This document shows, one piece after another, positions 19,810 through 49,718 of a stretch of DNA of 64,000 nt. The position numbers and the translations under genes are program-made. This DNA comes from Opitutaceae bacterium (GTDB lineage Bacteria > Verrucomicrobiota > Verrucomicrobiia > Opitutales > Opitutaceae). Under the pieces are notes generated by a model. That model worked only from the letters and a program-made list of their open reading frames with translations, was not told the DNA's origin and made no database searches. Position 1 is the stretch's first letter, and every line of letters starts with the position of its first letter. Where the stretch lies: NCBI GenBank assembly GCA_003151515.1, contig PLXS01000017.1:1-64000 (forward strand), read 5' to 3'.

Positions 19810-21045
19810 ATGATCGCCCAAGCCCCATCCGACACCCTCGCCAGAATCGAGGCGGACCTGCGAGGGAACATCCTTCCGTTCTGGATCAGGCGCGTGCGGC
19901 TCGGGTCCGGTGGGTTCGTGGGCGCGATGACGAACGACCTCGCCGTGGACGCCTCCGCGGAGCGCGGGGCGCTCCTGACCTCCCGCATCCTCTGGACCTA
20001 CTCCGCGGCCTACGCCCGCTACCGGGACCCGGAATACCTCGCGATGGCGGACCACGCGTACGCCGACCTCCTCTCCGTGTTCCATGACGGGGCGAACGGC
20101 GGATTCTACTGGTCGGTGGCTTGCGACGGCACGGTGCTGCGCGACCGCAAGCAGGTCTACGGGCAGGCCTTCGCCATCTACGCCCTCGCGGAATACCACG
20201 CTGCGACCGGCCGGCGCGAGCCCCTGGACCTCGCCGTGGCGACCCAGGCCCTCGTCGAGGCGCACGCGCGCGACGGGCGCCACGGCGGCTACCTCGAGGC
20301 CTTCGGCCGCGGGTGGGAGCCGATCGCGGACATGAGGCTTAGCGCCGTGGACCTGAACGAGCCCAAGTCGCAGAACACCCACCTGCATGTGATGGAGGCC
20401 TACACGAGGCTCCTGGGCGTCTGGCCGGACGCGGGGCTTCGCGGGCAGCTTGCGCAGATCCTGGAGCTCATGCTCGGGCGCGTCGTGAATCCGCGCACGT
20501 GCCACCTGGGTCTCTTCTTCGCCGAGGACTGGACGCTTCGCTCGGACCGGATCTCATACGGGCACGACATCGAGGCGGCGTGGCTCCTGTGCCAGGCGGC
20601 GGACGCGCTCGGGGATGAGGGACTGAAGGGGCGCATCCGGCCCCTTGCGGTGCGGGTAGCCGAGGTGACCCTCGACCAGGGCGTGGACTCGGACGGCGGC
20701 GTCTACAACGAGGGGGCGCCCTCGGGGCTCACGAACACCAACAAGGAGTGGTGGCCGCAGGCCGAGGCGGTCGTCGGATTCCTGAACGCCTTTCAGGTGT
20801 CGGGCGAGGAGCGCTTCCTCGGCGCCGCGCTTCGCACGTGGGACTTCATCGAGAAGAGGATCATAGACCACAAGGGGGGCGAGTGGCTCAGGGGCGTCAC
20901 GCGCGAGGGACGCGTCCTGGAGGGCGAGCTCAAGGTGGGCTTCTGGAAATGCCCCTACCACAACGGGCGAACGGGCCTCGAGGCCACCCGGCGCCTGCGC
21001 GAGATCATCGCCGGTGGCGCCCACCTCCGAGTTTCCACGCCATGA
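19810..21045 (+). CDS. AGE-family 2-epimerase (cellobiose/mannobiose 2-epimerase type), cytoplasmic
   Basis: The 411-residue protein has the (alpha/alpha)6-barrel pattern of N-acylglucosamine/cellobiose 2-epimerases: RGNILPFWI, GALLTSRILWTYSAAY, RKQVYGQAFAIYALAEYH, SYGHDIEAAWLL (catalytic His), TNTNKEWWPQAEAVVGF and KCPYHNGRTGLEA (catalytic His). No signal peptide is present. It overlaps the GH130 phosphorylase gene in ATGA. In mannan degraders this pair converts beta-1,4-mannobiose to mannosylglucose and then phosphorolyses it, which argues for mannobiose 2-epimerase activity over cellobiose. The longer track frame reads out of frame through the permease gene. Confidence 0.88.
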   Translation: MIAQAPSDTLARIEADLRGNILPFWIRRVRLGSGGFVGAMTNDLAVDASAERGALLTSRILWTYSAAYARYRDPEYLAMADHAYADLLSVFHDGANGGFYWSVACDGTVLRDRKQVYGQAFAIYALAEYHAATGRREPLDLAVATQALVEAHARDGRHGGYLEAFGRGWEPIADMRLSAVDLNEPKSQNTHLHVMEAYTRLLGVWPDAGLRGQLAQILELMLGRVVNPRTCHLGLFFAEDWTLRSDRISYGHDIEAAWLLCQAADALGDEGLKGRIRPLAVRVAEVTLDQGVDSDGGVYNEGAPSGLTNTNKEWWPQAEAVVGFLNAFQVSGEERFLGAALRTWDFIEKRIIDHKGGEWLRGVTREGRVLEGELKVGFWKCPYHNGRTGLEATRRLREIIAGGAHLRVSTP

Positions 21046-22307
21046 AAAAGAAGAACCCCGGCGCCCCGCGCCCAAAGACCAAGACAGCCTCGCCCACAAG
21101 GAAGGGGGGCGGGATCCCGGCGGGCGCGCCCGCCGCATGGGCGGCGCGCCTCGCCCGGCTTCGCCGCGACCACGAGAGCTTCCTGTCGCGAAGGAATCCC
21201 GTCGACCCCGATTGGGACAACGGGGTCTTCGAGCGCTTCAAGCACCCCGCGATCACGTACCGCCACGCGCCCATCGAGTGGCGCTTCGACCTGAACCCGA
21301 AGACCAACCCCTTCCTCATGGAGCGCCTGGGCGTCAACGCGACCCTGAACCCGGGTGCGTTCCTCTGGAACGGCAGGCCCCACATGGTGGTGCGCTTTGA
21401 GGGATACGACCGCAAGAGCATCTTCGCGATCGCGGAGAGCCCGAACGGGTTCGACAACTGGAGGTTCTGGGACGAGCCCGTCGACCTGCCCGAGGTCAAG
21501 CCCGAGACCAACGTGTACGACATGCGCGTCACGTTCCACCAGGACGGCTGGATCTACGGGGTCTTCTGCGCCGAGTCCAAGGACCCGGCGGCGAAGCCCG
21601 GCGACCTCTCGAGCGCCGTCGCGGTCGCGGGCGTCGTGCGCACGAGGGACTTCAGGAAGTGGGAGCGCCTGCCAAACCTAAGGACGCCGGCCTCCCAGCA
21701 GCGCAACGTCGTACTGCACCCCGAGTTCGTCGGGGGCAAGTACGCCTTCTACACGCGCCCCATGGACGGGTTCATCGACGTGGGCTCGGGCGGCGGCATC
21801 GGCTGGACGCTCTGCGACGACATCGCGACCGGCGTCACCGGCCCGGAGGCGATCATCGACGGGCGCGCCTACCACACGATCAAGGAGGTCAAGAACGGGC
21901 AGGGGCCGGCGCCGATCAAGACGCCCGCGGGCTGGCTGCACCTCGCGCACGGCGTGCGCGCCTGCGCATCGGGCCTGCGCTACGTGCTCTACATGTTCAT
22001 GACCTCGCTCGAGGACCCGTCCAGGGTCACCGCGCGCCCGGGCGGGCACTTCCTGGCGCCGTACGGCGGCGAGGGCTTCGGCGACGTCTCCAACGTCACG
22101 TTCACGAACGGCTGGGTGGTGCTTCCCGACGGGACGGTGCTCATCTACTACGGGGGCTCCGACACGCGCTGCTACGTCGCGCGCTCGAGCGTCGAGAGGC
22201 TTGTCGACTGGTGCCTGAACACGCCCGAGGACGCGCTCACGACGCGCAGGGCGGTGGAGCAGCGCTTGAAGCTCATCCGCGCCAACAGGGCCGTCCTCGC
22301 CCGCTGA
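21042..22307 (+). CDS. GH130 4-O-beta-D-mannosyl-D-glucose phosphorylase
   Basis: The 421-residue enzyme closely follows the GH130_1 pattern: WRFDLNPKTNPFLMERLGVN, ESPNGFDNWRFWDEPV, TNVYDMRVT (general-acid Asp), RNVVLHPEF, GWLHLAHGVR and YYGGSDTR. GH130_1 enzymes use phosphate to split beta-mannosyl-1,4-glucose into mannose-1-phosphate and glucose in the cytoplasm. A basic 40-residue N-terminal tail (KKKNPGAPRPKTKTASPTRKG) precedes the domain and is unusual. ATGA coupling with the epimerase gene defines the pathway. It ends 7 bases from a convergent gene. Confidence 0.9.
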   Translation: MKKKNPGAPRPKTKTASPTRKGGGIPAGAPAAWAARLARLRRDHESFLSRRNPVDPDWDNGVFERFKHPAITYRHAPIEWRFDLNPKTNPFLMERLGVNATLNPGAFLWNGRPHMVVRFEGYDRKSIFAIAESPNGFDNWRFWDEPVDLPEVKPETNVYDMRVTFHQDGWIYGVFCAESKDPAAKPGDLSSAVAVAGVVRTRDFRKWERLPNLRTPASQQRNVVLHPEFVGGKYAFYTRPMDGFIDVGSGGGIGWTLCDDIATGVTGPEAIIDGRAYHTIKEVKNGQGPAPIKTPAGWLHLAHGVRACASGLRYVLYMFMTSLEDPSRVTARPGGHFLAPYGGEGFGDVSNVTFTNGWVVLPDGTVLIYYGGSDTRCYVARSSVERLVDWCLNTPEDALTTRRAVEQRLKLIRANRAVLAR

Positions 22308-31780: not shown

Positions 31781-34700
31781 ATGCCTGCTCTACGAAATCT
31801 GTTGCTGCGCGCGCTTACCATCGCGTCAGCACTTTGTTTTGCGGTTGTCCCGCGGATAGCGTTTGCCCAGGCGGCAGCGCCGGCCACGGACCAAACGACC
31901 ACTACCACGACGACGTCGACCGTGACGCCTACGACGACGGCCGGGAATGAGGAGGAGGCAGTCGTCCTCTCCCCCTTCGTCGTCGACGCAGCCGAGGAAA
32001 AAGGCAGTTACAAGGCCAACAGCACGTTGGCCGGCACGCGCGTGCGCACCGACCTGGGTGACGTCGCATCGGCGCTCTCCGTTGTCACCGCCCAATTCCT
32101 GCAGGACACCGGCGCGACCAACTCGCAGGACCTGCTGATCTACACCCCGAACACGGAAGTCGCGGGCCTGAACGGTAACTTCTCGGGACAGGCGGGCAAC
32201 GCCCAGTACAGCGAGAATCTCCTGACGCCCTCCACGACGACCCGCGTCCGCGGCCTGAGCGCGGCGGACAACACACGCGACTACTTCCTGACGGACATCC
32301 CGTGGGACAGCTTCAACGTCGGCCGCGTCGACCTGCAGCGCGGACCCAACTCGATCCTGTTCGGCGTCGGCAGCCCCGGTGGTATCATCAACAATGACGT
32401 CAACGACGCTGAGTTCACGAATGCGAACAACATCACGGACCGCTACGGCAGCTACAACTCGATCCGCAATTCCGCCGACTTCAATTACGTCCTGATACCG
32501 AATCAGCTGGCGATCCGCGTGTCCTGGGTGAACGACGAGGAGAAATACCAGGAGCGCTACACGTTCGACAACCAGACCCGCTACTTCGGCGCGGTCCGCT
32601 GGGATCCGAACCTGTTCGGCAAGGACAGCCACACGTCGATCCGGGCGAAGTTCGAGAAGGGCACGGTCTCCTCGAACAATCCGAGGACGCTGCCTCCGAT
32701 TGACGAGATCACGCCGTGGTTCGCATTCGGCAAGCCCCTCGACAACGAGTGGTCGCCCGGCTACGTGAACAATTCGACCACACAGAAGGCCATCCCGCTC
32801 CTCGGCATCGCCGACATCGGTGGATGGGCCCAGGGCCGCACCTACTGGCAGGACGTCTTGAGCTACTACAACGGCGTCCAGGGCGGCGCCAACATGAACG
32901 CCGGCAACACGCCGAGCTACGTCGAGTCGGGCATGATCAACAACACGGTCCTGAACGCGACCCAGATCGGCGTGAACCAGGGCACGGGCGTCGGCGACCT
33001 GCCGTTCTACCGCCCGATCGGCGTGCCGGACTACAACCTGTATGCTGTGAACGCCGGTGTCCCAGGCGGCTCGTACTACTCGGACAGGGTCCTCACGGAT
33101 CCGTCGATCTTCAACTACTTCGACTCGACCCTTGACGGACCGAACGAGCGCCAGTGGCAGGGCTGGACGGCGGCGAACTTCTCGGTTTCGCAGACGTTCT
33201 TCAACGACCGCCTCGGCTTCGAGCTCGTCTACGACCAGCAGCGCTACAACAACGGGCAGATCGGCAGCATGGGCGGCCCGAACTACGCGCTCACCGTCGA
33301 CGTGAACGAAACCTATGCGGACGGCTCGGCCAATCCGAACTTCGGGCGGCCCATGGTCGCCAACTCGGATGCCTACGGCAACAACTCGTCCGTGATCGAC
33401 CGCAACAGCCTGCGCTTCACGGCGACGGCTGAGCTGCGTACGTCGGACTTCGTGGACAAGAGCTCATGGCTCAACCGGATCTTCGGCCACCATGCGTTCA
33501 CGTTCCTGGACGAAGAGGACCATAGGAAGGAGCAGGACATTCAATGGTCGCAGTACGCGACAACGGCTGACTGGGAAACCCTGAACGATGTCCCGCTCTC
33601 AACCGCCATCACGAACAACCGCCAGTATGACTGGGCGGTTTACGTCGGCCCGAACCTGCTCGGCAACTCGTCGGCCTCCGGCCTCAACGCCAGCCCGATC
33701 AGCTTCATCCTGACGCCTGGCGCGCAGTCGATTGTCCGCAACTTCAACGCGACATGGAATAACCCGAACATCAGCCCGACGGCTCCGTACAACTACACCG
33801 ACCCGACGACCGCCACGCTCGACGTGAGCACGCAGGTCGCCAACCCTGCCAACTACGTTGGCTGGCAGAGCGTCCCGGTGCAGTGGTTGAACGCCAACAA
33901 CGCGGCGGACTTCCCGAGCCTCGTCACGGGTGGCCAGAAGACCTCCTACGTGGACGCCTCTCAGGGCTTCACATGGCAGGGCAGCATGCTTGACGACACA
34001 TTTGTGCCGACCTTCGGCTGGCGCAAGGATCACGTCGTCAACTACCAGACGCAGGCGCCCGAGGAGGCCTCCAATCCGTTCGTGGCGACGGACTACGGCC
34101 TAAATCCGAACACACGCCGCGAGGCGATCGGCGAGACGAAGGCCTACGGTGCAGTGTACCACTTCCCGAAGTTCCTGACGAGCTGGATAGGAGGCGGAAC
34201 GACATTCAGCCTGTTCTTCGACCATAATTCGAACTTCGAGGCGCAGGCGCCGCGCATCAGCCTGACGGGCACCACGCTGCCGAACCCGACCGGCAAGACC
34301 AAGGAGTACGGCTTCACCATCACGACCCTGAACGACAAGATCACGTTCAAGGTCGACTGGTACCGCACCCAGATCCAGAACGCCACGCTGGACGCCTCCA
34401 ACGACGGCGGCCTGGGCGGAAACGGCTACCAGATCTGGGCCCTCCCGGCCTGGGGCTATCAGTATGCGACGGATCTGCAGATGGGCATCAATGGTCAGGA
34501 CAATCCGAACAACTACTCGTACAACTGGAACTACGCCTGGCAGGACCAGCAGTCCGGCATCGCCGGCCACACTGGAAACACGCAGTACACGCAGAACCCG
34601 AACGACCCCGACGTGGCGCTTGAGCAGAGCATCATCCAAGGATGGCTCAACACGCCGATCCCGGCCGGATTCTTCGCGGCCTACGGCCTGCACCCGAACG

Positions 34701-35476
34701 AGATCAACCCGGCCCTCGCCAAGGCGTCCGGCCAGCTCGTCGACGGTATGGGCGGCCTGAGCCAGTACAATCCGAACACTGGGACTGGATCTGACCAGCC
34801 GGGTTCGCTCAACCCCGTTACCACGGTGGACACGCTCTCCCGGGGCGAGGAGTTTGAGCTCAGCGCCCAGCCGCTGCGCAACTGGAACATCACGGTCAAC
34901 TACTCGCGCACGTTCGCGACACACGATAACATCGATGCGCTCACGGTCGGCCTGATGAACCAGATCACCACCTGGTTTAACGGCCCGGCCGGCCAGCTTC
35001 GCCTGTGGGGCTCCGGCGGTTCGCCGATCGCCACGAACTGGGTCGACTACGTGTGGAACCCATACCTGGTCGAGGTCAACTCGTCCGGGCAGTCCGCTCC
35101 CGAGGTCTCCCCCTGGAGGCTCAACCTGATCACGACCTACACGTTTGACCGCGGCAAGCTGAAGGGCTACTTCATTGGCGGCGCGGTACGCATGGAGGCC
35201 GGCCGCATCGAGGGTTACCAATACGATCCGACGCTCGGCACGCTCGACGTGACCAAGCCTTGGAACGGCCCGAATGATGAACACTACGACCTGTGGTTTG
35301 GTTACTCGCGCAGGATCTTCGCAAACAAGATCAACTGGCGCATCCAGGCCAACATCCACAACGTGCTCAACAAGACGGAACTGGTTGCGGCACAGTACGA
35401 GCCTGACGGCAGTCTCGCCCTGGCCCGCATTCAGGACGGCATGAGCTGGCAGCTCACGAACTCGTTCGACTTCTGA
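31781..35476 (+). CDS. large TonB-dependent outer-membrane receptor
   Basis: The 1,231-residue protein has a signal peptide (LTIASALCFAVVPRIAFAQA), a Thr-rich linker, a conserved EEEAVVLSPFVVDA segment near the TonB-box position, a plug domain (TRVRGLSAADNTRDYFL, VDLQRGPNSILFGVGSPGG) and a long beta-barrel ending in Phe (QLTNSFDF). It would take up a bulky ligand across the outer membrane with TonB energy. The size and style are typical of Opitutaceae receptors. No SusD-like partner is present. It has its own promoter and terminator. The neighbours suggest manno-oligosaccharide uptake, but the ligand is inferred only. Confidence 0.92.
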   Translation: MPALRNLLLRALTIASALCFAVVPRIAFAQAAAPATDQTTTTTTTSTVTPTTTAGNEEEAVVLSPFVVDAAEEKGSYKANSTLAGTRVRTDLGDVASALSVVTAQFLQDTGATNSQDLLIYTPNTEVAGLNGNFSGQAGNAQYSENLLTPSTTTRVRGLSAADNTRDYFLTDIPWDSFNVGRVDLQRGPNSILFGVGSPGGIINNDVNDAEFTNANNITDRYGSYNSIRNSADFNYVLIPNQLAIRVSWVNDEEKYQERYTFDNQTRYFGAVRWDPNLFGKDSHTSIRAKFEKGTVSSNNPRTLPPIDEITPWFAFGKPLDNEWSPGYVNNSTTQKAIPLLGIADIGGWAQGRTYWQDVLSYYNGVQGGANMNAGNTPSYVESGMINNTVLNATQIGVNQGTGVGDLPFYRPIGVPDYNLYAVNAGVPGGSYYSDRVLTDPSIFNYFDSTLDGPNERQWQGWTAANFSVSQTFFNDRLGFELVYDQQRYNNGQIGSMGGPNYALTVDVNETYADGSANPNFGRPMVANSDAYGNNSSVIDRNSLRFTATAELRTSDFVDKSSWLNRIFGHHAFTFLDEEDHRKEQDIQWSQYATTADWETLNDVPLSTAITNNRQYDWAVYVGPNLLGNSSASGLNASPISFILTPGAQSIVRNFNATWNNPNISPTAPYNYTDPTTATLDVSTQVANPANYVGWQSVPVQWLNANNAADFPSLVTGGQKTSYVDASQGFTWQGSMLDDTFVPTFGWRKDHVVNYQTQAPEEASNPFVATDYGLNPNTRREAIGETKAYGAVYHFPKFLTSWIGGGTTFSLFFDHNSNFEAQAPRISLTGTTLPNPTGKTKEYGFTITTLNDKITFKVDWYRTQIQNATLDASNDGGLGGNGYQIWALPAWGYQYATDLQMGINGQDNPNNYSYNWNYAWQDQQSGIAGHTGNTQYTQNPNDPDVALEQSIIQGWLNTPIPAGFFAAYGLHPNEINPALAKASGQLVDGMGGLSQYNPNTGTGSDQPGSLNPVTTVDTLSRGEEFELSAQPLRNWNITVNYSRTFATHDNIDALTVGLMNQITTWFNGPAGQLRLWGSGGSPIATNWVDYVWNPYLVEVNSSGQSAPEVSPWRLNLITTYTFDRGKLKGYFIGGAVRMEAGRIEGYQYDPTLGTLDVTKPWNGPNDEHYDLWFGYSRRIFANKINWRIQANIHNVLNKTELVAAQYEPDGSLALARIQDGMSWQLTNSFDF

Positions 35477-35628: not shown

Positions 35629-36711
35629 ATGAAGCTTGAACTTCTCTGCGGCGCCCTTGCGGCCATGGCGGGACTGGGTGGTCGCGCCTGCGCGGCGGAG
35701 GCCCTGCCGCTTGTCGCGGCGGGCGATGACTCGGTGCGCTACGAGGGCCGGTATGCCCCGGGCCCTGGCGGGTCGGTGCGCCTCGGCTATCCGGGCGTCA
35801 CAGCGCACCTTCGGTTCCGCGGCAGGGCCCTTTCCCTGCACGCCCGGGCGTCGGCCGAGGTGTTCCTGGACGTCCTCGTGGACGCAGGGAAGCCGCGGCG
35901 GGTCCGTCTCGGGGCGGGCGAGGGCACCTGCGAGATCCTGCGCTCGCCCGAGGCGTCCGAGCACACGGTTGCGATTGTCCGGTGCAATGAGAGCTGGCAG
36001 GGCACGTGCGAGTACCTGGGATTCGTGCTCGACGCGGAGGGCAGGCTGCTTCCCGCGCCGGAGCCGCCGCAGCGCCGCCTCATGTTCATCGGCGATTCCG
36101 TCACGTGCGGCGAGCTGACGGCCTGGCTGCCCGGTGGTGACACCAAGGACAGGGCCAACGCGAACGCGCGCCTGTCCTACGGAATGATCCTTGCCCGCAG
36201 GCTCGGTGCACAGTGCCACCTCGTGAGCTACGGCGGGCGCGGGATCGTCCGGGACTGGCAGGGTATCCGGGACACGAGGAACGCTCCGCAGTTTTACGAG
36301 CTTGCCCTTCCCGACGATCCCTCGGCCGCGTGGCGGCATGCGGACTACGTGCCCGACGCGGTTGGGATCCAGCTCGGCACAAATGACTTCAGCCAGGGCA
36401 TACCCGACCAGAACGAGTTCGTGAACACCTACGTGGAATTCGTGCGCAAGGTGCGCCGCGACGCCCCGGGAGCGCTGATCTTCCTGATGGACTCGCCCAT
36501 ACTCGCGGACGATCCGGCGCGCGGGCCGCGGCGCTCGGCGCTGCACGCCTACCTGGCGCAGGTGGTCGAGCGGGCCGCCGACCCCAGGGTCGTCCTTGCC
36601 GGGTTGGGCCATTACCCGGGGGTTCCCGGAAACGGCCACCCGACAGGGGCCGAGCACGTCGCGATGGCGGACGAGCTCGAGCCCGTCCTTCGCAGGGCCC
36701 TGGGCCGGTAA
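35629..36711 (+). CDS. exported SGNH acetyl esterase, CE2-like
   Basis: The 360-residue protein has a signal peptide (LCGALAAMAGLGGRACA), an N-terminal beta-sandwich (about 25-140) and a C-terminal SGNH hydrolase. Block I is FIGDSVTCG with Ser157, and further blocks are GTNDF and GNGHPTGAEH (catalytic His). This two-domain order is that of carbohydrate esterase family 2, which deacetylates xylan and mannan oligosaccharides. In this locus it would remove acetyl groups from acetylated mannan in the periplasm. Block GG is replaced by VSYGGRGI. It is separated from the receptor by a terminator. Confidence 0.82.
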   Translation: MKLELLCGALAAMAGLGGRACAAEALPLVAAGDDSVRYEGRYAPGPGGSVRLGYPGVTAHLRFRGRALSLHARASAEVFLDVLVDAGKPRRVRLGAGEGTCEILRSPEASEHTVAIVRCNESWQGTCEYLGFVLDAEGRLLPAPEPPQRRLMFIGDSVTCGELTAWLPGGDTKDRANANARLSYGMILARRLGAQCHLVSYGGRGIVRDWQGIRDTRNAPQFYELALPDDPSAAWRHADYVPDAVGIQLGTNDFSQGIPDQNEFVNTYVEFVRKVRRDAPGALIFLMDSPILADDPARGPRRSALHAYLAQVVERAADPRVVLAGLGHYPGVPGNGHPTGAEHVAMADELEPVLRRALGR

Positions 36712-39201: not shown

Positions 39202-41031
39202 CTAGCTGGCCTTCTCCAGCCGGTCGTACCAGTTGTACTTTATGTACGTCGAGGTGGCGACCAGGAGCGCGAATATCGCGCAGGCCCAGGACCACTGCTT
39301 GAGGACGATGTAGACCGCGAGCGTCACCAGGCACAGCTGCCAGACGATGCCCACGGCGACGTTCGTCAGGTCGCGCGCCGCGCTGCGGTTGGGCACGAAC
39401 GACGGGTCCTCGAGCATCACCTTCTCGCGGATGGGGCCCCACCAGCCCCAGGGGTTGACGCTCTTGTAGAACTTTTTCAGGACCTCGTCGTCCTCGGCCG
39501 TACTCATGAAAGTCCCGGCGAGGCAGCCCGCCAGCGAGATGACGAGCAGGAACGGGAACGTGTAGAGGGCGTTGAAGCTCCTGCCCGTCGCCTTCTCAAG
39601 GAGCAGGAACAGGATGGCGCCGGCGATGCCGCAGACCATCCCCCAGAAGTACCCGTAGCCATTGAACCGCCACCAGTACCATTTGAGGACGTTCGCGGCG
39701 ACGAAGGCGCTGTAGAGGGCTCCGACGAGCCACATCATGACGCTCGTGATGCTTGTCGTCAGCAGGCCGCAGACGATCCCGATCACGAGGAAGACGATCG
39801 AGAAAATGCGGCTTAAGGCCACCTCGTGCCTGCCCCCGGAGTTGGGGTTCATGAAGCGCTTGTAGATGTCGTTGACGACATAGGCTGGGGCCGCATTGAG
39901 CGTGGCCGCGAAGTTGGACATGAACGCCGCGGCGAGTCCCGCAAGGAGAAAGCCGACGACGCCCGACGGGACGTGGCCCAGCGCAATGGGGAGGATCTTC
40001 TCGAAGTCGGGGGCGGCCTGCGACTGCAGCTGCGGCATGCAGAAGGCGAGGGCGAGGACCGTGATCCCGGCGATCATCATGTAGCGCGGGAACATGAGGA
40101 CGACGGTCACCATCCCGTTCATGAGCGAGGCCTCGCGCGGGTTGCGCGTCGCCAGGATGCGCTGCATGTCGTAGTTCGGGGCCGGCCCCGCGAGGCTCGC
40201 GAGGACGCCCTTGAAGGTCATCAGGCAGAAGATGATCGTGAAGAGGTCGTTGCCGTCGCTCGTGATGGAGGCGTTCGCGGTCTTGAGGATCCCGTCCCAG
40301 TTCAGCCCGAGCCTCCAGCCGAAGAAGGGGTTCATCCAGCCGGCCGGGATGCTGTGCGCGATCATCTCGGGCGAGACCTTGACCAGGGCGATGATGCCTA
40401 GCGTGAGCGCCGTGAGCGTGAGGATCGTGAACTGCGCCACCTCGGTGATGACGACGCTCACCATGCCGCCCTTGATCGCGTAGAGGGACGTGAGCCCGAG
40501 CAGGATGATGGCGTAGATGTTCTCGTCGGCGAAGACGCCGCTCGCCTGGTTCGTGAAGCGCCACGGCAGCAGGACGACCGCGAACTTGCCGATGCCCTTG
40601 AAGGCGTAGGCCAGGAGCCCGACCACGTTGACGAGCGCGAACACGACGACGCTCAGGTGCGCGAGCGTGGCGCCGCGGTCGTTGCCGAAGCGCGTCTGCA
40701 TCCACTGCGCGCCCGTGAGCACGTTCGAGCGCCTCAGCCAGGCGCTCATGAACATCATCAGGAAGATCTGGTTGAACGTCGGCCAGACCCAGGGCAGCCA
40801 GATGCTCTTGAGGCCGTAGATGAAGAGCGCGTAGACCAGGTACATGGTGCCGCTGATGTCGAACATCCCGGACGCGTCCGAGACGCCGAGCATGAACCAG
40901 GGCAGCTTTTTTCCGCCGAGAAAGTAGCCGTCCAGGTCCTTGGATCCCTTCCGGGAGACCCACAGGCCGATGGCGACCACGGCCACGAAGTAGCCGACGA
41001 CGATGCTGATGTCTAGGACGTGCAGCTGCAT
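39202..41031 (-). CDS. sodium:solute symporter (SSS family), probable sugar transporter
   Basis: The 609-residue protein has about 14 membrane segments and SSS features: DISIVVGYFVAVVAIGLWVSRKG at the N-terminus, DGYFLGGKKLPWFMLGVSDASGMFDISG, and GFLLAGLAAAFMSNFAATLNAAPAYVVNDIY, which contains the sodium-site helix. It couples Na+ to uptake of a sugar or similar solute across the inner membrane. ATG 41031 fits the family start; the track's longer start adds non-homologous residues. The gene is divergent from the exported epimerase gene across 161 bases that must hold both promoters. Its substrate is probably mannose, mannobiose or mannosylglucose. Confidence 0.9.
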   Translation of the reverse strand: MQLHVLDISIVVGYFVAVVAIGLWVSRKGSKDLDGYFLGGKKLPWFMLGVSDASGMFDISGTMYLVYALFIYGLKSIWLPWVWPTFNQIFLMMFMSAWLRRSNVLTGAQWMQTRFGNDRGATLAHLSVVVFALVNVVGLLAYAFKGIGKFAVVLLPWRFTNQASGVFADENIYAIILLGLTSLYAIKGGMVSVVITEVAQFTILTLTALTLGIIALVKVSPEMIAHSIPAGWMNPFFGWRLGLNWDGILKTANASITSDGNDLFTIIFCLMTFKGVLASLAGPAPNYDMQRILATRNPREASLMNGMVTVVLMFPRYMMIAGITVLALAFCMPQLQSQAAPDFEKILPIALGHVPSGVVGFLLAGLAAAFMSNFAATLNAAPAYVVNDIYKRFMNPNSGGRHEVALSRIFSIVFLVIGIVCGLLTTSITSVMMWLVGALYSAFVAANVLKWYWWRFNGYGYFWGMVCGIAGAILFLLLEKATGRSFNALYTFPFLLVISLAGCLAGTFMSTAEDDEVLKKFYKSVNPWGWWGPIREKVMLEDPSFVPNRSAARDLTNVAVGIVWQLCLVTLAVYIVLKQWSWACAIFALLVATSTYIKYNWYDRLEKAS

Positions 41032-41192: not shown

Positions 41193-42539
41193 ATGACTAC
41201 CCCACGAACCCTCCTCGGGGGCCTGGCCCTTGTGGCGTGCACCTGCGCCGCGGCCGCCCCCGCCGCGACCCCGGCGCCGGCGGGGGCGCAGGCCCAGCTC
41301 ACCCGCCTCGCGTCCGACGCCGAGGCCGAGCTGCGCGGCGACATCCTGCCGTTCTGGCTCAAGCACGCGCGAGACACCGAGCACGGCGGCTTCCACTCGT
41401 TCATAGGGGAGGACATGTCGGTGCGCGACGACCCGGTCCCGCACGGGGCGCTCCTGACGAGCCGCATCCTCTGGACGTTCTCGGCGGCGTACCGGCTCTA
41501 CCGGGACCCCGCGTACCTCGAGATGGCGCGCTGGGCGTTCAAGGACCTGGCCGGGCGGTTCACGGACCCGCAGTACGGCGGGCTCTACTGGTCGGCGCGC
41601 GCCGACGGGACGCCCGTGGACGCGCACAAGCAGGTCTACGGGCAGGTCTTCGGCATCTACGGCCTTTCGGAGTACTACAGGGCCACCGGCGACAGGGCCG
41701 CACTCGACCAGGCGATCGCGATCTACCAGCTGATCGAGAAATACGCGCACGATCCGGTGAATGGCGGCTACTACGACTCGCTCGCGCGCGACTGGAAGAA
41801 GGGGGACTCCGACAAGGCTGAACTCCTCGGGGGCGCCCCCAAGTCACAGAACTCCCACATCCACATCCTCGAGGGCTTCACGAACCTGCTGCGCGTCTGG
41901 CCGGACGAGGGGCTGCGCTCGCGCGAGCGCGAGCTGGTCCTACTGGTGATGACGCGCATCATCGACCCCAGGACCCACCACCTGGTCCTCTTCATGAAGG
42001 ACGACTGGACGCCGATCGGCGACGACGTCTCGTACGGCCACGACATCGAGCTGAGCTGGCTCCTGGTCGAGGCGACCCGGGTGCTGGGAGAGCCCGCGCT
42101 CAGCGAGCGCGCGCGAAGGCTCGCCCTGCAGATCGCGGACGTGACGCAGGCCCAGGGCGTCGACGCGGACGGCGGCGTCTACACCGAGGGCGGCCCCAAG
42201 GGCCCGACGAACACGGACAAGGAGTGGTGGGAGCAGGCCGAGGCCGCCGTGGGCTTCCTGAACGCCTACCAGATCTCCGGCTCTCCGGCGTACCTGGCCG
42301 ACTCGCTCAGGAGCTGGAGCTTCATCCAGGACAGGCTCGTGGACCGCAAGAACGGGGACTGGCACAACATGCTGCGGCGCGACGGCACGCCCATCCTGGA
42401 GTACAAGGGGCGCGACGGCCGCACGTTCCCGAGCGCGAAGCTGAGCGTCTGGAAGTGCCCGTACCACAACAGCCGCTCGTGCATGGAGCTGATCGAGCGC
42501 TCGCGCGAGATGGGCGCCGGTGCGCCCGCCGCCCCCTAG
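41193..42539 (+). CDS. exported AGE-family 2-epimerase
   Basis: The 448-residue protein shares the barrel of 19810-21045 along its length: RGDILPFWLKHA, GALLTSRILWTFSAAY, HKQVYGQVFGIYGLSEYY, SYGHDIELSWLL, TNTDKEWWEQAEAAVGF and KCPYHNSRSCMEL. Both catalytic His residues are kept. Unlike the first copy it begins with an export signal (TLLGGLALVACTCAAAAPA) containing the lipobox-like LVAC, so it may be a periplasmic lipoprotein. AGE-family epimerases are normally cytoplasmic. I start at ATG 41193, directly before the signal. Its stop overlaps the convergent GH5 gene in CTAG. Confidence 0.87.
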   Translation: MTTPRTLLGGLALVACTCAAAAPAATPAPAGAQAQLTRLASDAEAELRGDILPFWLKHARDTEHGGFHSFIGEDMSVRDDPVPHGALLTSRILWTFSAAYRLYRDPAYLEMARWAFKDLAGRFTDPQYGGLYWSARADGTPVDAHKQVYGQVFGIYGLSEYYRATGDRAALDQAIAIYQLIEKYAHDPVNGGYYDSLARDWKKGDSDKAELLGGAPKSQNSHIHILEGFTNLLRVWPDEGLRSRERELVLLVMTRIIDPRTHHLVLFMKDDWTPIGDDVSYGHDIELSWLLVEATRVLGEPALSERARRLALQIADVTQAQGVDADGGVYTEGGPKGPTNTDKEWWEQAEAAVGFLNAYQISGSPAYLADSLRSWSFIQDRLVDRKNGDWHNMLRRDGTPILEYKGRDGRTFPSAKLSVWKCPYHNSRSCMELIERSREMGAGAPAAP

Positions 42540-43636
42540 CCCGCGAGGAGCAGCTCGAGCATCCGGCGGTCGAGCTTGTGGCCCTCGAAGTCCTCGTAGC
42601 GCACGTCGGCCCTGCCGCTGTCGACGATCCCGAAGGGGCCGCGCAGGTTCCACATGGACCAGCCCCAGCCGGCCTCCCTCCAGAGGGCCAGCAGGTCCGT
42701 CATCCAGCCCAGGCAGGCGCCGTGCGGGGTCCTGGAGAAGCAGCCCCACTCGCCGACGTGGACGGGGACGCCGAGCTCGACGAGCGCCCTCCACTTCGTG
42801 ATCAGCTCGGCGCGCAGCTTCGCGCGGTCCCAGGTGACCCCGTTCTTGTCCACCATGGGCCAGGTGGGCGTCGCGAGCGACTCGAACTCGCGCGGCGGGA
42901 CCCAGTCGGCGGTGTAGTGGCTCACCATCTTCGGCAGGTAGCCGCGCGTGCTCTGGACGATGCCCTGGTCCGCGAGGCCCATGACAGGGGTCTGGCCGAT
43001 GTCGGCGCCGTCGGCGACGATCAGGCGCCCGGGGCTTGTCTCCCTTATGGTCGCGATCAGCGCCCGGGCCACCTCGACGTAGCGGGACTGGTCGGCCATG
43101 AACGGGGGCTCGTTGAACAGGTCGAAGCTCAGGCGCGAGCTCGGGATGTCCCCGTAGCGCAGGGCCAGGTGGCGCCAGTGGTGGCGCGCGGCCTCCAGGG
43201 CGCGGGCCATCGAGTCGGGCGGGCTGTCGAAGAGCTGGTGGGGCTCGAGCTCGCGCCCGTTCACGCAGTAGCCCGGTATCCGGTGCAGGCAGAGGTTGAG
43301 GTAGATGCCGTGGCGCCGGCCCATCTCCATCGCGGCGTCCAGGGGCTTGAGGGACTCCTCGTCGATCCTCATCCAGTCCTTCGGGTCCGACCAGGACCAG
43401 TAGGAGACGGGAAGGCGGGCGAAATTGAAGCCCCAGCGCGCCATCCACTCGAAGTCGCTCTCCCTGTAGGCGAGCGCGCGGGAGCCGCGCGAGGCCCCCT
43501 GGATGTTGAAGCCGCGCCAGAGGGGTATCTTGGGCTGGGGGCGCGGGCCGGGGGCCTCGGCGCGGCCGAGGCCGGGAAGGATGGCCCCCGCGGCCGCGGC
43601 GGCCGAGGCGCCGATGAATGTTCTGCGTGTGATCAT
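42536..43636 (-). CDS. GH5-family glycoside hydrolase, Tat-exported, probable mannanase or glucanase
   Basis: The 366-residue enzyme starts with a twin-arginine signal (TRRTFIGASAAAAAGAIL). WRGFNIQG and GFNFARLPVSYWSW, then the acid/base Glu in FDLFNEPP, and the nucleophile Glu in HVGEWGCF are clan GH-A, GH5 hallmarks. Endo-mannanases, glucomannanases and cellulases all occur in GH5; the neighbours favour mannan or glucomannan. Its start overlaps the stop of the GH28-like gene (ATGA), so the two are coupled. The longer track frame is rejected because the Tat signal marks the start. Confidence 0.85.
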   Translation of the reverse strand: MITRRTFIGASAAAAAGAILPGLGRAEAPGPRPQPKIPLWRGFNIQGASRGSRALAYRESDFEWMARWGFNFARLPVSYWSWSDPKDWMRIDEESLKPLDAAMEMGRRHGIYLNLCLHRIPGYCVNGRELEPHQLFDSPPDSMARALEAARHHWRHLALRYGDIPSSRLSFDLFNEPPFMADQSRYVEVARALIATIRETSPGRLIVADGADIGQTPVMGLADQGIVQSTRGYLPKMVSHYTADWVPPREFESLATPTWPMVDKNGVTWDRAKLRAELITKWRALVELGVPVHVGEWGCFSRTPHGACLGWMTDLLALWREAGWGWSMWNLRGPFGIVDSGRADVRYEDFEGHKLDRRMLELLLAG

Positions 43637-45054
43637 AGGCTTGGGCGGATGAGCCGCGCCTCGGCGCCCGGGTGGGCCGCCTCGCCGGCCAGGCCGGAGT
43701 CGTCCAGGCCGGGGCATCCCGCGGCGTCGAGCGCATGCTCGAAGTAGGCCGGCGGGTTCGGGCCCCAGGTGACGCTGCAGTCGCGAAGGCTGACCCGGGC
43801 GGCGCCGCGCAGCAAAAAGCCGCTTGTCGCCATGCGGGGCAGAGCGTCGCCCTCGCTCGGCCGCAGGTCCTGGCGCCCGCCCTCGAAGGTGCCAGGCCTG
43901 ACGATTCGGATGGAGACCCCCTCGAAGGAGATCCCTTCAATGTGGCCGGGCTGCGCGGCGTAGACCATGGCTCCGTTCTCGCAGGTGCAGGTGAGGTTCG
44001 AGAAGCGCACGTCCCTGATGACGCCGAGCCGGGTGTCCTTGGTCCACGGAAGTGCCAGGACCTGGATCGGCTCGCCGCGCCCCCACCACATCGAGTCGAA
44101 GATCCTGGTGGAGATGACAAGGTCAGAGAAGAGGACGTGCTCTATCGTGCCCCCGAGGCTCAGGCGCACCGCCACGCCGCGATGGCTGTCGCTGATCACG
44201 CAGCCGCTGACGATCACGTTGCGGATCGGGCCCGCGGCGTCGCAGCCCAGGACGACCCCGCACGAGCGCGTGACGAGCGTGCAGCCGGTGATGACGATGT
44301 TCTCGCAGGGCCGGCTCACGCCCTCGCTCAAGGGCGCCGTCTTGAGCGAGATGCAGTCGTCGCCGGTCGTGATGTGGCAGCCGCGCACGCGCACGTTCGA
44401 GGACCAGTCGATGTCGAGGCCGTCGTTGTTGGGCATCAGCAGGTCGCCGTCTATGCGCAGCGAGTCGGCGGTCACGTCGTCGCAGCCGAGCAGCCTCAGG
44501 GTCCAGAACGCCGAATTCGTGAGGGAGAAGTCCCGCAGCAGCACGTGCGTGCACTCCTTGAGCACCATCGTGAACGGGCGCAGGCCGACGCAGGTGTAGA
44601 TGTACGGCCCGACCTTCGACACGTAGGCCATCCCGTTGCCGTCTATCCTCCCCGGGCCCGTGACGGCGATGTCGTCGGCCTTCTCCGCGTAGACGATGAC
44701 GCCCATCATCGGCACCGGGCCGGGGTCGAACGACACGGGCGGCGGCGCGAAGCGCGTGAAGTCCGCGTGGCGGGGGCTGCCCTGCAGGAGCGACCCGCGC
44801 CCGAGGTGAAGCTCGACGTGGCTCTTGAGGACGACCGTTCCGATCGTCAGGCGCGTCCCCGGGGGCACCTCCACGCGGCCTCCCCCCTGGGCGGCGCAGG
44901 CGTCAATGGCGCCCTGGATGGCCGCGGTGTCGGCCTGGACGCCCCGACCCGTGGCCCCGTAGTCGACGACGCTGAAGATGCCCGGCGGGGACGCCATGGC
45001 GCAAAGCGGCACCAGGAGGGTGGCGAGGCCTCGCAGGATCGGGGCGCGTGACAT
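43633..45054 (-). CDS. GH28-like exported beta-helix protein
   Basis: The 473-residue protein has a signal peptide (LRGLATLLVPLCAMA) and the polygalacturonase fold: DYGATGRGVQADTAAIQGAIDAC, VTGPGRIDGNG, NNDGLDIDWS (NxD motif) and TGDDCISLK (DD motif). At the next catalytic position TRSCGVVLG replaces the usual (S/G)HG, so the conserved His is Cys, and RIK is not evident. Activity may be altered or lost, or the enzyme may act on another glycan. It is first in a two-gene unit with the GH5 gene. Confidence 0.8.
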   Translation of the reverse strand: MSRAPILRGLATLLVPLCAMASPPGIFSVVDYGATGRGVQADTAAIQGAIDACAAQGGGRVEVPPGTRLTIGTVVLKSHVELHLGRGSLLQGSPRHADFTRFAPPPVSFDPGPVPMMGVIVYAEKADDIAVTGPGRIDGNGMAYVSKVGPYIYTCVGLRPFTMVLKECTHVLLRDFSLTNSAFWTLRLLGCDDVTADSLRIDGDLLMPNNDGLDIDWSSNVRVRGCHITTGDDCISLKTAPLSEGVSRPCENIVITGCTLVTRSCGVVLGCDAAGPIRNVIVSGCVISDSHRGVAVRLSLGGTIEHVLFSDLVISTRIFDSMWWGRGEPIQVLALPWTKDTRLGVIRDVRFSNLTCTCENGAMVYAAQPGHIEGISFEGVSIRIVRPGTFEGGRQDLRPSEGDALPRMATSGFLLRGAARVSLRDCSVTWGPNPPAYFEHALDAAGCPGLDDSGLAGEAAHPGAEARLIRPSL

Positions 45055-45343: not shown

Positions 45344-46333
45344 ATGAAGCTAAAGATTGAAGGTCCAGCGCTCCCGAACATCCCGTGGCAGCCCAGGCCC
45401 ACGAACAATGCCGACACCGCCTGGCGCTACAGCGGCAACCCGGTCGTGGGGCGCCGCCCCCTGCCCAGGGTCACCGGAATCTACAACAGCGCGGTCGTCC
45501 CATGGAAGGGTGGCTTCATCGGCGTGTTCCGCACCGAGGGCATGGACCGCATACCGCACCTGCACGTCGGGCGCAGCAAGGACGGCTTCAAGTTCACATT
45601 CGAGCCGAAGCCGATCGACCTGGAGTGCGACGACCCCGAGGTGCGCAGGTTCGAGTACGCCTACGACCCCCGCGTCACGCCGATCGACGGCGTCCACTAC
45701 GTCACCTGGTGCAACGGCTACCACGGCCCGACAATCGGGATCGCGAGGACCAGGGACTTCGTGCGCTTCGAGCAGCTGGAAAACGCCTTCCTGCCCTACA
45801 ACCGAAACGGCGTCCTCTTCCCCCGCAGGTTCGACGGCAAGTTCCTCATGCTCAGCCGCCCCTCCGACACGGGCCACACGCCCTTCGGGGACATATTCAT
45901 AAGCGAGAGCGAGGACCTGGTCCACTGGGGGCGCCACCGCCACGTGATGGGGCGCGGAGGCCCGTGGTGGCAGGGGACGAAGATCGGCGCGGGCCCGTCG
46001 CCCATCGAGACGAGCGAGGGCTGGCTCCTCTTCTATCACGGCGTCACGACCACCTGCAACGGATACGTGTACGCGATCGGCGCGATGCTGCTCGACCGCA
46101 AGGAGCCATGGAAGGTCATCGCCTGCGCCGACCAGCCGCTCATCAACCCCGAGGCGCCCTACGAGGTGTCGGGCTTCGTCCCGGGCGTCTGCTTCCCCGT
46201 GGGCTGCCTGTGCGACTCCGCCACCGGCCGGATAGCGATCTACTACGGGGCCGCCGACACCTTCACCGCGCTGTGCTTCTGCGACGCCAACGAGGTCGTC
46301 AGGTTCATCAAGGACCACCCTCTCGCGAGATGA
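45344..46333 (+). CDS. GH130-family mannoside phosphorylase (second type)
   Basis: The 329-residue enzyme has the five-bladed GH130 propeller in a different sequence style from 21042-22307: TGIYNSAVVPWKGGFIGVFR, EYAYDPRVT (acid Asp), YVTWCNGYHGPTIG, NRNGVLFPRRFDGKFLMLSRPSD, GAGPSPIETSEGWLLFYHG and IYYGAADT. This resembles the GH130_2 branch, which includes beta-1,4-manno-oligosaccharide phosphorylases. No signal peptide is seen, so it acts in the cytoplasm on imported manno-oligosaccharides. I chose ATG 45344; ATG 45314 is an alternative. The regulator gene follows after 53 bases on the same strand. Confidence 0.87.
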   Translation: MKLKIEGPALPNIPWQPRPTNNADTAWRYSGNPVVGRRPLPRVTGIYNSAVVPWKGGFIGVFRTEGMDRIPHLHVGRSKDGFKFTFEPKPIDLECDDPEVRRFEYAYDPRVTPIDGVHYVTWCNGYHGPTIGIARTRDFVRFEQLENAFLPYNRNGVLFPRRFDGKFLMLSRPSDTGHTPFGDIFISESEDLVHWGRHRHVMGRGGPWWQGTKIGAGPSPIETSEGWLLFYHGVTTTCNGYVYAIGAMLLDRKEPWKVIACADQPLINPEAPYEVSGFVPGVCFPVGCLCDSATGRIAIYYGAADTFTALCFCDANEVVRFIKDHPLAR

Positions 46334-46386: not shown

Positions 46387-47625
46387 GTGAAAGCCCACGT
46401 GCTCCTGGTCTTCCTGACCCGCTTCGAGGAGAGCATGGCGATGCTCAAGGGGATCGCGCACTTCGAGCGCACCCACCACCTCTGGACGGCGTTCCACGAC
46501 GACCAGGCGCGCAGCGAGCAGGACCCCCACTGGGTGCGCAGCAAGAAGTGGGACGGGGTCATCAGCCGGCACACCACCCCGCAGATGGTGAGCGCCTGCG
46601 CCGAGCGCAAGATCCCGCTCATAGACCTGAACGACTGCCCTCCCTATCCCGGGGTGCCGAAGATCCGGCCCGACAACACGGCCATGGGCCACATGGGCGC
46701 CGAGCACTTCATCGAGAGGGGATACCAGAAGTTCGGCTTCTGCGGCTTCTCCAACGCGAGCTGGTCGCGCGAGCGCCGCGACGGGTTCGTCGAGGCCATC
46801 AAGCTGGCGGGTCGCCAGTGCTCGGTCTACGACGTGAGCTACCGCGGGGACACGACGCCCCTGGAGTGCGCCATCTACGACGTCGACTACCCCGGCGACA
46901 TGACGCCCTTCTGGGACGACGAGCAGATCAGCAAGCTCGCGGCCTGGATCGACCGGCTGCCGAGGCCCATCGCGCTCATGGCGTGCAACGACATGCGCGC
47001 GCAGCAGGTGATCAGCGCCGCGCGCTCGAAGGACATCCTCGTCCCCGAGGAGGTCGCCGTGCTCGGGATGAACAACGACACGATCCGCTGCGAGCTTTCC
47101 GACCCGGCCCTCTCGAGCGTGGCGCCGAACGCGTTCCAGTCCGGCTACCGCGCCGCCGAGCTGCTGGGCGAGATGCTCGCGGGGCGCGCCCCGAAGGAAC
47201 TCGACCAGCGAGTCGAGCCGGTCGGCGTCGTTACCAGGCATTCCACGGACGTCCTGGCCGTCGAGGACCGCAACGTGGCCGCCGCCCTGAGCTTCATCCG
47301 CGAGAACGCGTGCAACGGGATTACGGTCGAGCAGGTGCTGCAGCACGCGCACGCCTCGCGAAGCCAGATCGAGCGCAAGTTCCGCCAGCACATCGGCCGC
47401 TCCCCCCAGGCCGAGATCCGTCGCGTGCAGCTGCGCAAGATCCGCCAGCTGCTGATGGAGACCGACTTCCCCCTGAAGCGCATCGCCGAGCTCACGGGCT
47501 TCGAGCACATGGAGTACATGTGCGTGCTCTTCAAGCGCATGACGGGGATCTCCCCCGGGATCTACAGGGCGAAGATGCAGGACAAGACGATCGTTGGGTC
47601 CGCCGCCGCGCCGCAGGGCCAATGA
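46387..47625 (+). CDS. XylR-like transcriptional regulator (periplasmic-binding-like sensor plus AraC HTH)
   Basis: The 412-residue protein has an N-terminal LacI/periplasmic-binding-type sugar-sensing domain (ALMACNDMRAQQVISAA, VPEEVAVLGMNND). An AraC-type DNA-binding domain follows (ASRSQIERKFRQHIGRSPQAE; FPLKRIAELTGFEHMEYMCVLFKRMTG). This order is that of the E. coli xylose regulator XylR. It starts with GTG 46387. It probably activates the mannan genes in response to a sugar; its own gene lies between the GH130 and DUF5060 genes. The stop overlaps the next start in ATGA. Confidence 0.9.
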   Translation: MKAHVLLVFLTRFEESMAMLKGIAHFERTHHLWTAFHDDQARSEQDPHWVRSKKWDGVISRHTTPQMVSACAERKIPLIDLNDCPPYPGVPKIRPDNTAMGHMGAEHFIERGYQKFGFCGFSNASWSRERRDGFVEAIKLAGRQCSVYDVSYRGDTTPLECAIYDVDYPGDMTPFWDDEQISKLAAWIDRLPRPIALMACNDMRAQQVISAARSKDILVPEEVAVLGMNNDTIRCELSDPALSSVAPNAFQSGYRAAELLGEMLAGRAPKELDQRVEPVGVVTRHSTDVLAVEDRNVAAALSFIRENACNGITVEQVLQHAHASRSQIERKFRQHIGRSPQAEIRRVQLRKIRQLLMETDFPLKRIAELTGFEHMEYMCVLFKRMTGISPGIYRAKMQDKTIVGSAAAPQGQ

Positions 47626-49718
47626 CCCCGCCCGGCCCCCCGATGCGCCTGCGCCGCCTGCTGATCGCCCCCGCCTGTGCCCTTGCCTTCGCGGCCGCCC
47701 AGGGCGGCCCGAAGCCGATCGAGTTCGACTTCGTCGCGCCCGTGAGCGACGTCGCGAACCCGTACTCGCGCGAAATCTGGGCGAAGGTGACGACGCCCTC
47801 CGGCCAGACGCTGACGCTGCCGGCCTATTACGCCGACATGGGCCTATACGCCGTGCGGGTGCGCCCCGACGAGGCGGGGACCTACCGCTTCGGGGCGGTC
47901 TCGGAGACGACAAAGGGGGTGCGCTCGAGCGACCTCGTCGTCAGCCTGATCCCGCCGGCCGAGGTTGCGAACACCGCCCGGACGCGCCTGCCCGCCATCA
48001 TGAGGAACGCGGGCGAGCCCCGGCTCCTGCAGCGCTCGGACGGCCACCCTTACATACCGGTGGGCGCAAACCTCGCCTGGGCGCCCGACGAGAGCCCCGA
48101 CACGGTCGCCTTCTACCAGAAGGCGTTTCCGGCCTTCGCCCGGGCGAACCTCAACTGGATGCGCGTGTGGATGGCGGACTGGGACGGCCTGGACCTGGAC
48201 TGGCTTCCCGCCAGCATGGGCCCTTCGCCCAAGCCCGGGAGGCTGAGCGAGGACGTCGCCGAGCGCTGGGATAGGATCATCGAGTCGGCCGAGGAGAACG
48301 GGGTGTACGTGCAGGTGGTCCTGCAGCACCACGGCCAGTACACCACCTACAACGACTCAAACTGGGCCCAGAACCCGTGGAACGCCGCGAACCCCGGCGG
48401 ATTCCTGCGGTCGCCGACGGACTTCTTCACCGACCCGAACGCCCGGCTGATCACGCTGCTCAAGTACCGCTACATCGTCGCCCGGTGGGGCTGGTCGCCG
48501 GCGGTGCTGGCCTGGGAGCTGTTCAACGAGGTGCACTGGACGAACGCCATGAGGGAGGGGCACGAGGCCGACGTCGCGCGCTGGCACTCGGCAATGGCGG
48601 ACTACATCCGCTCGGTCGACGCCTACGGCCACCTGATAACGACGAGCACCGAGAACCTCCGAAGCCCCGTCTACGAGAAGATGGACTACTGCCAGCCGCA
48701 CCTCTACGCGTCCAACATGGTCGCGGGGGCGCGGGCCTTCGCCCAGGGCTACGCGTCGCTCGGCAAGCCCGCGTTCTACGGCGAGGCGGGCAACGATCAC
48801 GAGGCCGTGCCCGCCGAGGCCATCAAGGCGGGACTGGACCTCGTGCCGCCGGTGTGGGCGAGCATCATGGGCCAGGGGGACCTTGCCGCCCAGCCGTGGG
48901 ACGGGTGGAACGTCCTCGGGACGAACCGGCTGGGGGAGCTGGGATCGGTCATCCGCTTCCTCGCGGTGAACGGGGTCGCCGCGCAGAGGGGACTCGGGCC
49001 CTTTTCGTGCGTTGTCGAGTGCGCCGCCCGCGTGCCGCTCAAAATCGTCGCCGGCGAGGTCTGGCAGCGCCGCGCCCCGCTGGAGACCGAGTACCCGCTT
49101 GACGGCAGGGAGCCGATCGAGGCGGCGGAGGTCGCCGCAACCCTCGTGGGCAACCGCGCGAGCGTCGCCGACGGTTACCCGGACCGCGCGACCTACCGCC
49201 TGGACATGCCGCGCGACACGACGATGCGCGTGCGCGTCGATTCCAGGGCGGAGGCGGGCGGAGGCCTGCGGGTGAGCCTGGACGGCTCGATCGTGGCGGC
49301 CCACCGGTGGGCCGGGGGAACGGCGCCGATGGATCCGGTTGTGCTCGAATTCCCCGTCGCCAAGGGCAGGCGCACGCTCCTTCTTGAGGATCCGGGCCCG
49401 GACTGGATCGGCATTGCCGAGATCGACACGGGGCTCGACCAGCCGGCCCTGGCGCTCATCGGACGGCGAAACGAGCGCTTCATCGAGGCGTGGATCTGGA
49501 ACCGCGCGGGGCTGTACGCCCTGGGCCAGCCCAAGCCGGTGGCCGGAACCGCGGCAATCGACAACGTGGCCGCCGGAACGTGGAAGGTCACCTGGTGGGA
49601 CGCCGCGAGGGGCGCCCCCTCCGGCACGCTCGTCGTGAAACATCCGGGCGGGACCCTCAGGCTCGAGACCCCGCCGATAGGCCGCTACGCCGCGGTCGCG
49701 CTCTCCCTCGTGCCCTAG
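47622..49718 (+). CDS. DUF5060 / clan GH-A-like secreted glycosidase
   Basis: The 698-residue protein has a signal region (RRLLIAPACALAFAAAQGG) and an N-terminal beta domain of DUF5060 type (IEFDFVAPVSDVANPYSREIWAKV, AGTYRFGAVSET). A TIM barrel follows, with NLNWMRVWMADWD, LAWELFNEVHWTN (acid/base Glu) and AFYGEAGND (probable nucleophile Glu), and then C-terminal beta domains. Homologues are annotated as cellulase-like or GH5-like hydrolases; the substrate is uncertain, with mannan a candidate from context. ATG 47622 overlaps the regulator stop, and a second ATG at 47643 is possible. Its stop overlaps the convergent gene in CTAG. Confidence 0.78.
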   Translation: MTPPGPPMRLRRLLIAPACALAFAAAQGGPKPIEFDFVAPVSDVANPYSREIWAKVTTPSGQTLTLPAYYADMGLYAVRVRPDEAGTYRFGAVSETTKGVRSSDLVVSLIPPAEVANTARTRLPAIMRNAGEPRLLQRSDGHPYIPVGANLAWAPDESPDTVAFYQKAFPAFARANLNWMRVWMADWDGLDLDWLPASMGPSPKPGRLSEDVAERWDRIIESAEENGVYVQVVLQHHGQYTTYNDSNWAQNPWNAANPGGFLRSPTDFFTDPNARLITLLKYRYIVARWGWSPAVLAWELFNEVHWTNAMREGHEADVARWHSAMADYIRSVDAYGHLITTSTENLRSPVYEKMDYCQPHLYASNMVAGARAFAQGYASLGKPAFYGEAGNDHEAVPAEAIKAGLDLVPPVWASIMGQGDLAAQPWDGWNVLGTNRLGELGSVIRFLAVNGVAAQRGLGPFSCVVECAARVPLKIVAGEVWQRRAPLETEYPLDGREPIEAAEVAATLVGNRASVADGYPDRATYRLDMPRDTTMRVRVDSRAEAGGGLRVSLDGSIVAAHRWAGGTAPMDPVVLEFPVAKGRRTLLLEDPGPDWIGIAEIDTGLDQPALALIGRRNERFIEAWIWNRAGLYALGQPKPVAGTAAIDNVAAGTWKVTWWDAARGAPSGTLVVKHPGGTLRLETPPIGRYAAVALSLVP

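Follow-up and report, generated by a model that had tools for sequence, protein, structure and literature searches.

The window, a 64,000-nucleotide stretch of an Opitutaceae bacterium contig, encodes two cellobiose 2-epimerase (CE)-type proteins of the AGE family. One of them, AGE_B (448 aa; 41193–42539, forward strand), is probably a periplasmic or cell-surface enzyme that acts on β-1,4-linked manno/gluco-disaccharides before import, beside the usual cytoplasmic CE. We infer its location, its activity and its place in the order of steps from its sequence and fold, its catalytic residues, a conserved signal, co-occurrence with other enzymes and a GH9 fusion.

The AGE_B reading frame is real, with an ATG at 41193, a stop codon ending at 42539 and a GC3 of 0.93. 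PF07221 matches the protein with an E-value of 5e-37 (Pfam), and its top PDB match is the CE of Rhodothermus marinus (RmCE, 3wkf; E 1.7e-102). The AlphaFold model has a pLDDT of 88.7 and superimposes on 3wkg and 3wkf with TM scores of 0.92–0.93 (normalised by target). Both sequence and model comparison thus place AGE_B among AGE-type (α/α)6 barrels, nearest to the CEs. AGE_B shares this fold and the catalytic residues with RmCE (PDB 3wkf/3wkg/9l8i; 42% identity in the structure alignment) but differs from it by its signal peptide and, in its own seven-member subclade and nowhere else, by 11 extra residues close to the active site, inserted before the last catalytic histidine (42381–42440).

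The active site was compared with that of RmCE. His283 (42039–42041) and His425 (42465–42467) align with the catalytic residues His259 and His390 of RmCE, and His224 (41862–41864) aligns with His200; all three codons lie on the forward strand. Likewise, Arg91, Asn220, Glu286, Trp346 and Trp420 correspond to Arg66, Asn196, Glu262, Trp322 and Trp385. These eight residues are invariant in all 28 orthologs. The first-pass annotation, made from the DNA letters, had stated that both catalytic histidines are kept; their retention holds, but there are three rather than two, the number given for CEs generally (PMC13281645). The active-site columns and the best matches are CE-like, as opposed to those of mannose or GlcNAc epimerases. 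Just two minor active-site columns separate the exported from the cytoplasmic clade, and they give no clue to specificity. With the NCBIfam EpiA equivalog, AGE_B scores 282 bits, below the 800-bit cut-off, although this is still its best family by far. Since the cytoplasmic paralog AGE_A also falls short (345 bits), the strict EpiA model covers close EpiA relatives only.

AGE_A (19810–21045, forward strand) is 49% identical to AGE_B by sequence comparison and has the same active site, but it begins directly with the fold core and has no signal peptide. AGE_B is preceded by a signal peptide and linker, MTTPRTLLGGLALVACTCAAAAPAATPAPA (41193–41282, forward strand), delimited by ortholog comparison and the AlphaFold model: residues 1–24 have a pLDDT below 50, the first barrel helix comprises residues 30–58 and the mature fold begins at about residue 30. 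The features of a Sec-type signal (a short n-region, a hydrophobic core and a cleavage motif) are present and are kept in the orthologs. We called signal peptides from hydropathy and comparison rather than with SignalP, using relatives from 252 Opitutaceae-family genomes and from other sources; the search of genome contigs reached close relatives only. All 28 intact members of the exported (B) group start approximately 45–70 codons upstream of a conserved ILPFW core and continue with a hydrophobic stretch. Nearly all of the 29 members of the cytoplasmic (A) group start 20 codons ahead of this core, about 30 codons later than the B members, and none has a hydrophobic stretch or a signal; the other CEs compared lack a signal too. 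The 10-residue hydropathy is 1.96–3.32 throughout the exported orthologs and at most 1.62 in every A paralog. The signal peptide proposed in the first-pass annotation is therefore borne out by 28 of 28 orthologs set against signal-free paralogs.

The same comparison bears on whether AGE_B could be an ordinary cytoplasmic CE whose N-terminus was mis-annotated or is bypassed by an internal start. An internal start is conceivable, as GTG at residue 14 is the sole in-frame alternative ahead of the AGE_B core and some exported orthologs (8 of 28) carry GTG or ATG where the A paralogs begin. However, the N-terminus is hydrophobic in every ortholog, no obvious ribosome site precedes these internal codons in the exported orthologs, and in one relative the AGE domain bears the only signal of a protein that also contains a GH9 domain (see below). 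We regard a cytoplasmic AGE_B as very unlikely. A downstream start removing the signal, which had been named in advance as one of two cases against export, is likewise improbable, because the upstream ATG and the hydrophobic stretch are found in every ortholog; an artefact of start-codon annotation was rejected as the source of the signal on the same grounds.

The codon 20 positions ahead of the ILPFW core is GTG or ATG in 8 of 28 exported orthologs, compared with 34 of 756 other linker codons. They may be left over from the ancestral start, or they may act as a second start that yields a cytoplasmic form.

AGE_B had also been noted for a lipobox-like motif, LVAC, at residues 13–16 (41229–41240, forward strand). 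The motif satisfies the strict lipobox pattern, but predicted lipidation is not shared across the clade: only two of the 28 orthologs have such a box, LVAC in AGE_B and VAGC in its sister in G010. In most of the other 26, the hydrophobic core is followed by a type I site (A-x-A), and the clade thus lacks the conserved lipobox cysteine of bacterial lipoproteins. Because the box is confined to two members, lipidation is unproven, the lipoprotein reading was demoted, and release into the periplasm appears likelier from the sequences. Anchoring via Cys16 as an outer-membrane or surface lipoprotein, for which the strict fit of LVAC and the VAGC of the sister speak, seems rather unlikely given the A-x-A sites of most orthologs; it is a sub-question of location and would agree with a CE acting outside the inner membrane.

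An independent argument for export comes from a natural gene fusion. In the complete, single-contig genome G619, the B protein is 1218 aa long (L106:9365–13018) and consists of an AGE domain (residues 63–398) followed by CelD_N and a GH9 catalytic domain, and its sole signal peptide is situated at the AGE end. GH9 enzymes have external polysaccharides as their substrate, so an AGE domain fused to one is expected to be outside as well. The same AGE–GH9 join, cut by the contig end, is found in G685 (L113). In G015, a stand-alone GH9 gene with its own signal starts 34 bp downstream of the B gene, and in G724 a GH9 gene is adjacent to it. Cytoplasmic location is a habit of described CEs rather than part of the definition of the enzyme, and AGE_B, with its signal, departs from it. 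Taken together, comparative genomics and the GH9 fusion give good support to the prediction that a CE-type epimerase with a complete catalytic site is exported. AGE_B would thus combine a known CE fold and active site with a different (predicted) compartment and, in relatives, a new domain partner.

The genes around AGE_B outline its probable context. Convergent with AGE_B, and overlapping its 3′ end at 42536–42539, is a gene for an exported GH5 enzyme with a twin-arginine N-terminus (42536–43636, reverse strand), assigned by Pfam and related to TM1752 and CpMan5B; the latter cuts both manno- and cello-oligosaccharides (PMC3835425), and the mannan specificity of the window enzyme is inferred from these two relatives. 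Further downstream, Pfam identifies a secreted GH28-type protein (43633–45054, reverse strand; syntenic in the genus), a cytoplasmic GH130 of the mannooligosaccharide phosphorylase type (45344–46333, forward strand; nearest TM1225, UhgbMP and RaMP2), a regulator with a periplasmic-binding-like sensor domain and an AraC-type HTH (46387–47625, forward strand) and a secreted GH5-type protein with DUF5060 (47622–49718, forward strand). On the other side, Pfam identifies a TonB-dependent receptor (31781–35476, forward strand), syntenic with AGE_B and the symporter gene described below in L034 and L041, and a secreted CE2-type acetylesterase (35629–36711, forward strand). By inspection, the GH5, GH28, CE2 and DUF5060 proteins carry export signals and GH130 carries none. 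Directly after AGE_A lies a second phosphorylase gene (21042–22307, forward strand), whose assignment to the GH130_1-type mannosylglucose phosphorylases is by resemblance and not by a subfamily model. The gene order SSS, AGE_B, GH5, GH28, GH130, regulator, GH5-DUF5060 is well conserved across the genus; in three members the SSS gene or its adjacency is missing. The window thus brings together a mannan hydrolase, a GH130, an importer and a TonB receptor, as in a mannan utilisation locus. We take the source to be a soil bacterium and the locus to target plant-wall mannan and cellulose. A scan for promoters and terminators found nothing. The GH28-type protein is nearest to polygalacturonase and rhamnogalacturonidase models, and it has a conserved place inside this mannan-type locus.

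Co-occurrence agrees with this setting. Among the 252 family genomes, 30 have B genes. The window-type exported GH5 is found in 25 genomes, 23 of which have a B gene (p 2.5e-24), and the GH9 type in 36, including 27 of the 30 B genomes (p 2.3e-25); as the genomes are related, these p-values overstate independence. Together with the neighbouring genes, this points to β-1,4-linked manno/gluco-oligosaccharides as the context of AGE_B. An exported AGE-fold epimerase could instead have another main substrate, such as free mannose or glucose, or longer cello-oligosaccharides made by GH9, on whose reducing ends it would act; the import of epimerised disaccharide would then not be its purpose. Characterised CEs do interconvert mannose and glucose (PMC13281645), and the GH9 fusion hints at products of cellulose or glucan. 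Nevertheless, the locus contains GH130 and a GH5 related to CpMan5B and TM1752, and the active-site columns and top matches are of the CE type, not of the mannose or GlcNAc epimerase type, so that we consider a different main substrate unlikely.

Divergent from AGE_B is the gene for a 609-aa SSS-family symporter (39202–41031, reverse strand; PF00474), confirming the earlier description of this neighbour; its true start is probably 41031, leaving a divergent intergenic region of 161 bp. The symporter was demoted as a dedicated partner of AGE_B, since its presence and linkage do not track AGE_B beyond one genus. Apart from the window, just five congeners have it beside AGE_B. At the threshold applied, congeners G003, G006 and G008 lack it, and its type is present in 14 of the 30 B genomes and in 10 genomes without B. 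In G626 it is located near AGE_A and the associated GH130 instead. Over its full length, it shares 48% and 45% identity with the symporters of the SSS–GH130–CE clusters on plasmids of the Bacteroidota Flammeovirga kamogawensis and Hymenobacter NBH84, respectively, where CE and GH130 are likewise adjacent but the CE has no signal peptide. This patchy co-presence and the linkage to cytoplasmic CEs make it probable that the symporter works for the entire pathway. Its substrate may be mannobiose, mannosylglucose or both; a symporter of a Muricauda PUL has been described as an importer of manno- and manno-gluco-disaccharides (PMC9860051).

In a tree of trimmed proteins, exported and A members are on opposite sides of one branch, and 26 of the 28 B members form a clade with 97% support. 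Support for the deepest A/B branch is low (18), and the tree is therefore compatible with a single origin of export without proving it. A cytoplasmic CE coexists with the B gene in 26 of 30 genomes, which shows that the two are not simple replacements for each other; G664, for example, holds a cytoplasmic-type CE besides the exported one, and G663 has fragments of one. This coexistence could also mean that AGE_A does the enzymatic work and that AGE_B is a sugar-binding protein or a relic that the cell could do without. Against that, all checked catalytic and main binding residues are invariant in the 28 orthologs, down to approximately 50% identity, which makes such a role highly improbable. 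In G724 and G685, a mannosylglucose phosphorylase gene is present and the exported CE is the sole PF07221 match; these gene sets fit epimerisation taking place outside first, with the caveats that the genomes are 93% and 80% complete and that the phosphorylase gene of G724 is frameshifted. At C1:884000–899000 of G724 (L166), the frameshift splits this gene, and there is no cytoplasmic epimerase gene in its usual upstream place.

In the pathway described so far, cells first take up mannobiose; cytoplasmic EpiA then epimerises it, and GH130 cleaves the product (PMC12704710; also PMC6643232). The first-pass annotation had correctly placed known CEs in the cytoplasm. Import comes first in this accepted order, so an exported CE would represent a new one. 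The annotation had further proposed epimerisation before uptake by the symporter; predicted export supports the first half of this proposal and the novelty that the order would have, whereas a dedicated role of the symporter is not supported. Part of the sugar pathway probably runs before uptake.

We propose that a cytoplasmic CE-type enzyme gained an N-terminal Sec signal, which would place AGE_B outside the inner membrane, in the periplasm and possibly bound to the surface. Exported GH5, GH9 and GH26 enzymes would release β-1,4-linked disaccharides, and AGE_B would flip C2 of the reducing-end sugar, converting mannobiose to mannosylglucose and glucosylmannose to cellobiose. The four glucomannan disaccharides would thereby be narrowed to two, mannosylglucose and cellobiose, both usable by cytoplasmic enzymes. 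Both would be taken up by whatever sugar carrier the inner membrane contains, in this genome probably the SSS symporter, GH130 would then cleave the imported disaccharides, and AGE_A would run the same reaction inside the cell. It is a serious possibility, if somewhat short of probable, that Opitutaceae have split epimerisation over two compartments in this way, with a periplasmic or surface CE, sometimes fused to GH9, that rewrites reducing ends on release, narrows the set of sugars to be imported and provides the sole epimerisation step where a cytoplasmic CE is absent.

Described CEs act after import, and a stable exported clade tied or fused to wall-degrading enzymes would alter the order of steps in mannan pathways. 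It would also suggest, in a form open to testing, why a bacterium retains two copies of the same enzyme. For the production of epilactose and other rare sugars, in which CEs are used, the B clade would supply naturally secreted enzymes, and it would provide a natural cellulase–epimerase fusion.

Among the closest described systems is the EpiA pathway of Segatella copri (PMC12704710), which similarly clusters a CE, GH130, exported mannanases, a TonB receptor and a symporter. There, import precedes epimerisation, whereas in the window genome one of two CEs is predicted to be exported. The BF0772 phosphorylase of Bacteroides fragilis is cytoplasmic (PMC4599007). A literature search without most subscription journals found no paper on an exported or periplasmic CE. 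Among AGE-fold proteins, export is not confined to the B clade, since a plasmid-encoded AGE protein of Spirosoma oryzicola (WP_232563039.1; L149:3908–5278) resembles AGE_B in having a signal-like N-terminus and the catalytic histidines. Unlike AGE_B, its nearest PDB entry is a Runella glucose 2-epimerase and it has no mannan genes alongside; the two proteins are only 31% identical.

A third AGE-family gene in the window genome (G000, contig C12:68309–69550) is distant and encodes no signal peptide. Outside the window genus, neighbours of B genes include GH26, GH44, GH5 and an MFS_2 sugar transporter, and several AGE_B genes (L067, L099 and L111) are situated amid unrelated genes. At L098:7586–9103 of G565, a single ORF combines an NMT1/THI5-like domain with a pterin-4a-carbinolamine dehydratase domain.
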